DNA from: Flavobacterium sp. ENC
GTDB taxonomy: Bacteria; Bacteroidota; Bacteroidia; Flavobacteriales; Flavobacteriaceae
DNA: 64,000 bases
Direction of reading: 5' to 3'
Assembly: GCF_020991415.1 (NCBI RefSeq)
Contig: NZ_JAJMOY010000009.1
Coordinates: 62,001 to 126,000, forward strand
Shown here: piece after piece, positions 40,077-42,208 of the stretch
Numbering within the stretch: position 1 is the stretch's first letter
Layout: the number at the start of each line of letters is the position of its first letter
Position numbers and translations under genes: made by a program
The notes under the pieces: model-generated
Database searches by the model: none
The model's input: only the letters and a program-made list of their open reading frames with translations
What the model was told of the DNA's origin: nothing

Positions 40077-40987
40077 TTATATAAAACTAACGATAAAATA
40101 CCACAGCGAAAGAGTTACGAAGGAAACCGGTATTCCGAAACCAATCATCATGCTGCTTAATTTAGGTTTTAATCCGTATGTCGAAGCCAGAATTGCACCT
40201 GTGATCATGGGTGCCATCGCCATTTCCATAATAGTTATTTTAATTACCTCAGAATACTGCCTTAAGATCAAAACATATAAAACGAGGATTATCAGAGGAG
40301 CCAGAATTAATTTATAAAGAAGTCCGAGCTGCAAAAATTTCCAGTGTCTGCTTTTCCGGTCAAACGTAAGCTGCAATCCAACTGAAAGCAGCGCTAAAGG
40401 CGTGACAAAACTTCCGATTTTCAATAGAACAGCTTGTAAGTCGTCGTTAAATTCAAAGCTAAAAACATTCATCAGGCAGGCAAAAACGAAAGTCAGGAAA
40501 GGTGGAAAAAGTGCCACTTTTTTTATAATTCCGAAAGTGTCAGGACTTCCCTTAGAATAAAAAGCAGCCACGAAAACGCCCAAAGTCGAAACCACAACAA
40601 AGGTTCCCGGCTGATCGACAAGAACTGCTGTTTCCAAACCTTTTTTTCCAAATAAGGCTTCAATTATCGGATAACCCAAAAAGGAACTGTTACTTAATCC
40701 TGCGGTTAGGATCATACAGCCAATCAGTTTATTCGACCAGCCCAGCCGTTTTCCTAAAAAATGAAAAAATATAAAAGCCAACAGAAAACTAATCCAGCCC
40801 GCTCCTATCGGAACAATAATTCCGGATTCCAATTTATTTTCGGGATATGGTATAAGGTAATCGCTGGCAGGCAAAAATAAATGACAATTTTGTTTAAATG
40901 CTTGTAGATATGCACCGGAAACTGCTTTATTCTTTGCAAAAGCAAACCTAAAGCCAGGAAGAAGAATATTAGAATAAAGTTGTTCAT
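40077..40987 (-). pseudogene. AEC-family transporter, interrupted by one frameshift
   Basis: Two overlapping frames together encode one transporter. The first 60 codons (40987-40805; MNNFILIFFFLALGLLLQRI to NPELLFR) end at a TAG; the second frame (from about 40812 to 40077) continues PIGAGWISFLLAFIFFHFLG. Inserting one C into TTGTTCCGATAG gives LLFPIGAGW and a single ~303-aa protein with ten hydrophobic helices, the normal AEC size. The lesion is in a short C run near 40810, so either a recent pseudogene or a base-calling error is possible. The rest of the frame has no other defects. Confidence 0.85.
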
Positions 40988-41077: not shown

Positions 41078-41085
41078 TACATTTG
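41078..41085 (+). promoter_or_regulatory. TACATTTG -7 box of the Rrf2 gene
   Basis: Perfect TAnnTTTG 19 bp before the ATG at 41105; its last two bases overlap the palindrome-like operator candidate. Confidence 0.55.
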
Positions 41086-41102
41086 TAACATATTTTATTA
41101 CA
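41084..41102 (+). promoter_or_regulatory. Candidate Rrf2 operator, copy 1
   Basis: TGTAACATATTTTATTACA, an inverted repeat TGTAA/TTACA spaced by 9. It overlaps the end of the -7 box and lies just before the ATG, a position suited to autorepression. Copy 2 at 41532 matches 17 of 19 bases. Confidence 0.65.
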
Positions 41103-41104
41103 GT

Positions 41105-41512
41105 ATGATTTCAGGTAAGTTTGCCATAACGATTCACATTTTAACTTTACTCACTAAATTCCCGAATGATTTTTTGTCATCCGAATTTATTGCAGGAAGC
41201 ATGAACCTCAACCCTGTTTTGGTTCGTAAAGAAATTGCGAATCTGAAAGCACACCATATTGTAGAAAGTAAAGAAGGTAAAAACGGAGGTACAAAATTAT
41301 CTAAGAAAGCTTCAGCTATCACTTTAAAGGAAATATTCGAACTTACTTTTGACAATATCAATTTAGGCTATGCCAAAAACCAGCCGAATCCTGACTGTCC
41401 GGTTGGGAAAAAAGTCAATCAAAATTTGGCTGAATTATATGCGGACATCAATGAAAATGTAGGTTTACAATTGAAAAAAATCACACTGGAAGATTTTTCG
41501 AGTCAGTTCTAA
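41105..41512 (+). CDS. Rrf2-family transcriptional regulator
   Basis: 135 aa. Winged-helix pattern: SGKFAITIHILTLLTKFPND, SEFIAGSMNLNPVLVRKEIA (recognition helix) and KEGKNGGTKLSKKASAITLK (wing). Only one cysteine is present (NPDCPVGKK), so the three-Cys [2Fe-2S] site of IscR/NsrR is absent; this resembles the YwgB/YwnA-like Rrf2 group paired with NAD(P)-binding proteins. The adjacent reductase-like gene 54 bp downstream and the shared upstream motif support local regulation. Confidence 0.9.
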   Translation: MISGKFAITIHILTLLTKFPNDFLSSEFIAGSMNLNPVLVRKEIANLKAHHIVESKEGKNGGTKLSKKASAITLKEIFELTFDNINLGYAKNQPNPDCPVGKKVNQNLAELYADINENVGLQLKKITLEDFSSQF

Positions 41513-41531
41513 CCCTTTTTTTATACAAAAC

Positions 41532-41550
41532 TGTAACATTTTTTATTACT
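41532..41550 (+). promoter_or_regulatory. Candidate Rrf2 operator, copy 2
   Basis: TGTAACATTTTTTATTACT, differing from copy 1 at positions 9 and 19 only. It lies 16 bp before the ATG of the NAD(P)-binding protein gene. Confidence 0.65.
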
Positions 41551-41566
41551 AATTAAATTATATATT

Positions 41567-42208
41567 ATGAAAATTGCAATCATTGGAGCTACAGGATTTG
41601 TCGGCTCAGCTATCTTAAACGAATTAGCATCCAGAAACCAGGACATCACAGCGATCGCCAGAACTCCAAAAGAAACATCAAATGCAAACTGGATAGCTAC
41701 GGATATTTTTAATGTCGATGCATTGGCTGAAACTCTTAAAGGACACGATGTTATTATTTCTGCTTATAATCCGGGATGGGCTAATCCTAATATTTATGAG
41801 GATTTTATCGCAGGATCTAAAGCCATTCAGGAAGCGGTAAAAAAATCCGGTGTGAAACGTTTTATCACGATTGGCGGTGCCGGAAGTTTGTTTGTAGCCC
41901 CGGGTTTACAAGCGGTGGACACACCTGATTTCCCAAAAGAATACCATGCCGGAGCAACTGCAGCAAGGGATTACCTGAATATTTTGAAAGAAGAAAAAGA
42001 TCTGGACTGGGCCTTTTTTAGCCCTGCTTTTGAAATGCATCAGGGCATTACAACCGGAAGAACAGGAAAATACCGTTTAGGTTTGGATAACCCGGTTTTT
42101 AACGACGAACAAAGAAGTATTCTTTCTGTTGAAGATTTGGCGGTTGTTATTGCCGATGAAGCAGAAAATGCAAGACACCATCAGGTTCGTTTTACGGCGG
42201 CATATTAA
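41567..42208 (+). CDS. NAD(P)-binding protein (NmrA-like, atypical SDR)
   Basis: 213 aa. N-terminal dinucleotide motif MKIAIIGATGFVGSAILNEL; later IISAYNPGW, KRFITIGGAGSL and WAFFSPAFEMHQG. This is the NAD(P)-binding atypical SDR / YwnB-like group, often found beside an Rrf2 regulator. It lacks the YxxxK catalytic pair of classical SDRs, so activity is unknown. Probably regulated by the Rrf2 protein encoded just upstream, through the shared 19-bp motif. Confidence 0.88.
   Translation: MKIAIIGATGFVGSAILNELASRNQDITAIARTPKETSNANWIATDIFNVDALAETLKGHDVIISAYNPGWANPNIYEDFIAGSKAIQEAVKKSGVKRFITIGGAGSLFVAPGLQAVDTPDFPKEYHAGATAARDYLNILKEEKDLDWAFFSPAFEMHQGITTGRTGKYRLGLDNPVFNDEQRSILSVEDLAVVIADEAENARHHQVRFTAAY

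Follow-up and report, generated by a model that had tools for sequence, protein, structure and literature searches.

A two-gene locus in this Flavobacterium genome is, at a probability of about 0.85, an autoregulated monothiol switch like SifR/YwnA, in which an Rrf2-family repressor with one cysteine would control its own gene and that of a YwnB-type reductase, with quinones as the probable signal by analogy with SifR. The locus lies in the 64,000-nucleotide stretch of DNA that was analysed (the window), and its features, all on the forward strand, are as follows:

41078..41085, +: -7 promoter box TACATTTG, fitting the Bacteroidota sigma-A consensus TAHHTTTG and overlapping the first two bases of site 1
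41084..41102, +: site 1, predicted 19-bp operator TGTAACATATTTTATTACA, TGTAA-N9-TTACA core 10/10
41105..41512, +: gene for an Rrf2-family regulator, 135 aa, single cysteine Cys98 in NPDCPVGK, matching Pfam Rrf2 and 1xd7
41516..41522, +: seven-T tract, separated from site 2 by a 9-bp spacer; TTT-N9 is conserved in relatives
41532..41550, +: site 2, predicted 19-bp operator TGTAACATTTTTTATTACT, core 9/10
41567..42208, +: gene for an NAD(P)H-binding YwnB-like reductase, 213 aa, the presumed target, matching NAD_binding_10 and 4r01/3dhn

Both sites, their conservation and promoter context, the conserved cysteine and the families of the two genes are established here and documented below.

Conservation and specificity of the two predicted operators

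Sites 1 and 2 agree at 17 of 19 positions. The sequence of site 1 forms an almost perfect palindrome with the core TGTAA-N9-TTACA, and the core of site 2 is that of site 1 with the last base altered. The ATG of the Rrf2 gene (41105) comes 2 bp after the end of site 1, and that of the YwnB-like gene (41567) 16 bp after the end of site 2, which bears out both the coordinates and the identity in the original prediction of paired 19-bp motifs, 17 of 19 alike, each less than 20 bp from an ATG. Searching the window for the pattern with up to three mismatches returned two places, sites 1 and 2, each with 0 mismatches; because 0.77 matches are expected at this loose threshold and 17 of 100 shuffles reached two matches, this window-only test is a weak one. 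When both intergenic stretches were dinucleotide-shuffled 5000 times, no shuffle combined a 10/10 TGTAA-N9-TTACA core with a second one of 9/10; in 19 of them some pair of 19-mers on one strand agreed at no fewer than 17 positions. Cores of at least 9/10 occurred in 0.34% of 5000 random 120-bp draws from the window. The two sites are not due to chance, and the decisive evidence is their conservation in other species.

We assembled 162 loci with a relative of the regulator, comprising 47 from a genus search and taken by hand (L001-L047), 35 from a phylum search (L077-L111) and 80 from named genomes (L112-L191); motif matches (L048-L076) were excluded from the locus counts. One locus is the window itself, and 141 of the 162 are distinct, some repeating one contig. 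Distinct sequences numbered 110 close and 22 distant (40-57% identity) near site 1, and 92 close and 22 distant near site 2. A site 1 core of at least 9/10 was found upstream of the Rrf2 gene in 159 of the 162 loci (10/10 in 148) and a site 2 core of at least 9/10 before the gene behind Rrf2 in 152, both spread across Bacteroidota; the latter figure is 149 of 153 for loci with the reductase gene directly behind the regulator. Phylogenetic footprinting at orthologous loci, on which the original prediction had staked both motifs, thus found them conserved. Even where regulators are 40-57% identical, a core of at least 9/10 is kept at site 1 in 22 of 23 loci and at site 2 in 21 of 23, and the ten core columns of this distant set carry 1.7-2.0 bits, versus a mean of 0.38 bits for the upstream flank. 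Site 2 is one core base short in the window and in most of the genus, reaching 10/10 in 6 of 134 close loci.

The loci that fall below 9/10 are few. At site 1 they are L037, L107 and L108, and at site 2 they are L025 (8/10), L037, L043, L044, L047, L099, L108, L109, L111 and L139, the last of which is cut by a contig end. In L037, whose regulator is 65% identical, both sites are absent in this form and the regulator is not followed by a reductase gene; L043, L044 and L099 have kept the reductase gene without site 2; and L107 has kept site 2, with no site 1 at 9/10. The distance from site 1 to the ATG in the distant set is 27-35 bp in 11 loci and 1-9 bp in 11 others, and in L045 and L046 site 1 is inverted about 30 bp from the ATG with both sites retained, so the site 1 element moves as a unit. 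Similarly, L103 and L107, from another genus of the family, keep site 2 though a different gene follows (in L107 its product has a PNPOx_N, pyridoxamine 5'-phosphate oxidase, domain; 47.8 bits against a cut-off of 28.1), which makes the operator module portable.

The strict motif TGTAAYANWNTTTATTACW has two perfect matches in the 5.3-Mb genome, sites 1 and 2. Among 150 genomes of the genus, the regulator is present in 46 (E 2.3e-28 or better), and 39 of these 46 have the strict motif at this locus; a strict match occurs somewhere in 6 of the 104 genomes without the regulator. Off-locus strict matches in the 150 genomes numbered 10, against 9 for the reversed control pattern, and no further conserved target was apparent with the strict motif in this set. 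At least 23 distinct exact TGTAA-N9-TTACA cores occur in the genome, site 1 among them; 20 exact-core loci (L057-L076) divide into 14 within open reading frames 70 codons or longer, a few of which may be spurious, and 6 intergenic ones, and the extended motif was absent at all 6. With up to two mismatches, the extended motif is no commoner in the genome than its reversed control (25 + 23 versus 21 + 26), and on these two grounds we rejected a wider regulon. The bare core with one mismatch was commoner than its reversed control (509 versus 384 per strand), a difference that we took as no evidence because a palindrome and its reversal make an unfair pair. The regulator may have further weak targets in the genome.

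Several neighbouring observations stand apart from the switch itself. Two of the exact cores in the same genome (L059 and L060; contig 7, positions 3136 and 3343) are 207 bp apart, are reverse complements of each other and lie near divergent reading frames, one of which resembles a short-chain dehydrogenase by eye; they are perhaps an operator pair of another regulator. A second Rrf2 gene of this genome (L047; contig 41, 1546-1998), 31% identical and with a PECP motif, has a 9/10 core upstream and is followed by a gene for a DUF417 membrane protein (106.9 bits). We also considered control by site 1 of the divergent AEC-type transporter gene (40077-40987, - strand) and did not adopt it; the N-terminal part of the transporter turned up close to the regulator in 131 of 162 loci and in none of the four distant loci displayed. 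This transporter gene is split over two reading frames in the window; its halves form one frame in 119 of the 120 loci where both were found, the exception being this genome, and the split may be a real mutation or an assembly error.

The promoter at site 1 and the T tract at site 2

The -7 consensus of Bacteroidota sigma-A is given as TAHHTTTG in the accessible text of the source (PMC6847099). An exact box begins 6 bp before site 1 in 132 of the 133 close loci with site 1, and 19 of 26 distant loci have a box near site 1. Overall, 153 of 162 loci contain an exact box no more than 60 nt upstream of the Rrf2 ATG. Among the 153 loci with the reductase gene, no exact TAHHTTTG was found between the regulator stop and the reductase ATG (0/153), and the final 150 nt of the regulator gene contained none either. 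The two sites therefore differ, site 1 lying on a promoter box and site 2 lacking an exact one, a distinction that the original prediction had missed.

Site 2 has a mark of its own. TTT ends exactly 9 bp upstream of its TGTAA in 152 of 152 loci (130/130 close, 22/22 distant) and in all 114 distinct sequences; at the equal offset from site 1, TTT occurs in 0 of 133 close loci and 1 of 26 distant ones. The spacer is constant in length, though two of its positions are almost unconstrained among the close loci (0.40 and 0.50 bits), and the gap between the regulator stop codon and site 2 ranges from 15 to 22. Nine successive nucleotides ending at -10 from site 2 are all A/T in 104 of 130 close and 22 of 22 distant loci; the corresponding counts are 110 at -9, 60 at -8 and 2 at -11 among the 130 close loci, and 17 at -9 and 21 at -11 among the 22 distant ones.

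Two readings of this arrangement have to be weighed. The first, which is plausible while falling somewhat short of an even chance, is that site 2 acts as a roadblock: polymerase coming from site 1 would halt with the 3' end of its transcript inside the T tract, a position at which the hybrid would consist of A-U pairs only, and would be released. Polymerase stops about 14 bp before a bound protein in the case of EcoRI Q111, and the RNA-DNA hybrid is about 9 bases long. The roadblock is favoured by the lack of an exact promoter box between the genes, by the fixed TTT-N9-operator spacing, by the all-A/T stretch ending at -10 and by the missing T tract at site 1; roadblocking as such is established for LacI, CcpA and CodY in the available portions of the reports (PMC4132739; PMC10310618). 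Against it, the stretch between the genes often contains a box with a single mismatch. In addition, of the three loci that have the reductase gene and lack site 2, whose longest T runs are 3 (L043), 5 (L044) and 3 (L099), L043 alone has clearly lost the tract, since distant loci commonly have runs of no more than 3-4 T (11/22).

The second reading, to which we give the same odds as the first, is that site 2 guards a weak promoter of its own, so that a bound repressor would block initiation; the T tract would then be a degenerate -7 box, or the box would be TAAATTTA after the operator. At least one box with one mismatch is present in the intergenic stretch of 125 of 153 loci, with TATTTTTT, counted 99 times at -18 from site 2, and TAAATTTA, counted 75 times at +22, as the commonest, and their frequency leaves room for a weak second promoter, for which a fixed distance from -7 box to operator would be natural. 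The exact box, however, is found in 0 of 153 intergenic stretches versus 153 of 162 loci in the 60 nt before the Rrf2 gene, and in 20 aligned distant loci the TTT is invariant and the TA of the box is not.

Other explanations of the tract were tried. Folding of the sequence upstream of the T tract in 20 of the 152 loci, each compared with 100 base shuffles, gave a mean z of -1.0, with z below -2.5 in 5 of the 20 (L030, L041, L089 and the pair L103/L107), and an intrinsic terminator before the tract was rejected as a common explanation, not being general. UP elements are known from E. coli, and reading the A/T tracts as such an element misfits four loci in which 7-9 bp separate site 2 from the ATG.

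It is very improbable that the repeats are general promoter or translation-start elements with no specific operator function: site 1 does overlap the -7 box, both repeats adjoin start codons and AT-rich leaders are normal here, but the strict motif occurs at these two places of the genome only, palindromy is retained, and the core is kept in L044-L046 and in eight further loci, where 27-35 bp separate site 1 from the ATG, despite the shifted box and ATG.

A one-cysteine Rrf2 regulator and its reductase neighbour

The regulator belongs to the Rrf2 family (PF02082; 88.1 bits over residues 3-131, cut-off 30). Its best solved relative is YwnA (1xd7; E 2.4e-17), a sequence match that settles the fold; its closest named match is from F. 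cupreum (99% identical), and the best plasmid-borne Bacillota relatives among the matches listed are 33-36% identical. All 47 aligned proteins, the window protein among them, share Cys98, and its column is the only one with cysteine throughout. No cysteine besides this one occurs in 38 of the proteins, and the extra cysteines of the other 9 fall in columns common to no more than three. The window sequence NPDCPVGKK aligns with NPKCPVGKK of YwnA, placing Cys98 in an NPxCPVG motif and, by the 1xd7 alignment, probably at the start of helix 5, as in SifR and YwnA.

SifR is a pneumococcal Rrf2 repressor whose operator core, TGTAA-N9-TTACA, is the same for HypR; it has one conserved cysteine, in PNPxC, with which quinones react to cause release from DNA, as described in the accessible part of the report (PMC9218516). 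The window shares this core at the presumed regulated genes, at 10/10 and 9/10 in conserved, predicted sites. The HxxPNPxC signature of the SifR/YwnA monothiol cluster (SSN cluster 6) is incomplete, KNQPNPDC in the window keeping PNPxC with lysine in place of histidine. Because this histidine is missing, we would place the regulator in a sister branch, probably working like SifR, outside the published cluster. It does not reach the HypR model (NCBIfam NF041852; 58.7 bits against a cut-off of 180) and, having Cys98 alone, does not have the pair Cys33 and Cys99, whose disulfide is the switch of HypR (PMC9218516, same excerpt).

It is highly unlikely that the regulator senses through an Fe-S cluster in the manner of IscR, NsrR or RirA: it shares their Pfam family and gives weak matches to the IscR and RirA models, but IscR needs Cys-X5-Cys-X5-Cys-X2-His (PMC9218516, in the part available), and the window protein has one cysteine, at the only column where all 47 proteins have one. 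The absence of this pattern of three cysteines and one histidine, together with the invariance of Cys98, makes thiol chemistry in preference to an Fe-S cluster well supported, in line with the earlier proposal of a thiol- or ligand-based signal.

The protein encoded downstream scores 85.1 bits against Pfam NAD_binding_10 (cut-off 27.2). It matches pneumococcal YwnB (4r01) over its full length (residues 1-209, E 1.6e-25), and its best solved relative is 3dhn (E 1.7e-57). YwnB is described as a quinone reductase under SifR control, with ywnB among the most tightly bound SifR targets, in the text available for PMC9218516. The original reading, that the regulator controls itself and its NAD(P)-binding neighbour, is supported by the conservation of the sites, by the core shared with SifR and HypR and by ywnB being a SifR target, and it stands as a probable interpretation by analogy.

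The proposed switch and known systems

In the switch that we propose, DNA binding, repression, quinone chemistry and reductase function would all follow SifR. With Cys98 reduced (a residue that homology with YwnA and SifR would place where the dimerisation helix begins), a dimeric repressor would bind TGTAA-N9-TTACA. At site 1 it would cover its own -7 box and start region and so limit its own synthesis; at site 2 it would limit transcription of the YwnB-like gene, either as an obstacle to polymerase arriving from site 1 or as a block on a degenerate second promoter. Electrophiles, most likely catechol-derived quinones or other thiol-reactive compounds, would modify Cys98, whereupon the repressor would leave both sites and the reductase would be made and remove the electrophile.

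A more far-reaching proposal, which we regard as rather unlikely, is that site 2 is a repressor-gated terminator: the regulator's own bound dimer would halt polymerase fresh from transcribing the regulator gene, and the T tract 9 bp upstream would weaken the RNA-DNA hybrid and lead to release, so that one repressor would limit initiation at site 1 and elongation at site 2 on one transcript. The T tract-N9-operator module is conserved in several Bacteroidota families and stands before a non-reductase gene as well. If site 2 truly were a roadblock terminator, it would provide a sequence-defined module for repressor-dependent termination. The type of switch is already known from other bacteria, and the T tract at strict spacing from site 2 stands out as its oddity; the two-gene system is simple enough for tests in Flavobacterium.

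Relatives in other phyla offer a limited comparison. In nine plasmid-borne relatives, the best core within 250 bp upstream is 10/10 in three (L192, L194 and L200) and 6-9 in six, and the core within 250 bp downstream is 10/10 in one (L197), which is weakly consistent with a shared operator. One relative, on a plasmid of Treponema saccharophilum (L196), sits directly behind genes of the NAD(P)H-binding and pyridoxamine 5'-phosphate oxidase families, similar partners in another phylum, with no core above 7/10 within 250 bp.

Expression data on genes named ywnA or ywnB come from two studies. A F. johnsoniae gene annotated ywnA, a candidate orthologue of the window's regulator gene, rose by 2.5 log2 units when the strain was cocultured with P. 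koreensis, and it appears there among the koreenceine-dependent genes (PMC9239112, in the accessible part). Allicin shifts the expression of ywnA and ywnB in B. subtilis by 4.6-6 log2 units, and in that study YwnB is termed a MerA-like flavin disulfide reductase, not a quinone reductase (PMC6943732, likewise in part).

Among known systems, the roadblocks of CcpA, CodY and LacI resemble site 2 in having a repressor site downstream of a promoter, where it could halt elongation; the accessible portions of those reports mention no T tract at fixed distance, and the papers listed by a literature search on Rrf2 proteins and roadblocks, judged by their titles and opening abstract lines, apparently describe none. 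HypR-MerA of Staphylococcus aureus likewise pairs an Rrf2 thiol repressor with the identical operator core, but HypR works through its Cys33-Cys99 disulfide and controls MerA, whereas the window protein has no second cysteine. YwnA-YwnB of Bacillus subtilis shares the adjacent gene pair, and YwnA (1xd7) is the closest solved structure by sequence. This ywnAB operon of a Gram-positive bacterium shifts in expression under thiol stress, and the available text on it mentions no operator.

A close parallel is SifR-YwnB of Streptococcus pneumoniae, which, as judged by sequence, shares a one-cysteine PNPxC Rrf2 repressor, the TGTAA-N9-TTACA operator and a YwnB-type NAD(P)H reductase as the probable target. 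The pneumococcal genes lie apart, whereas those of the window are adjacent with a predicted operator before each; the SifR regulon includes catE, yhdA and fre, whereas here no further conserved target was found; and the window protein has lysine at the histidine of HxxPNPxC. The excerpted report names Firmicutes and a few Actinobacteria for the SifR/YwnA cluster (PMC9218516), and a literature search that covered few subscription papers showed no study of a monothiol Rrf2-YwnB switch in Bacteroidota among the matches listed. The present locus would extend this switch, known from those two groups, to Bacteroidota, together with a predicted operator map.
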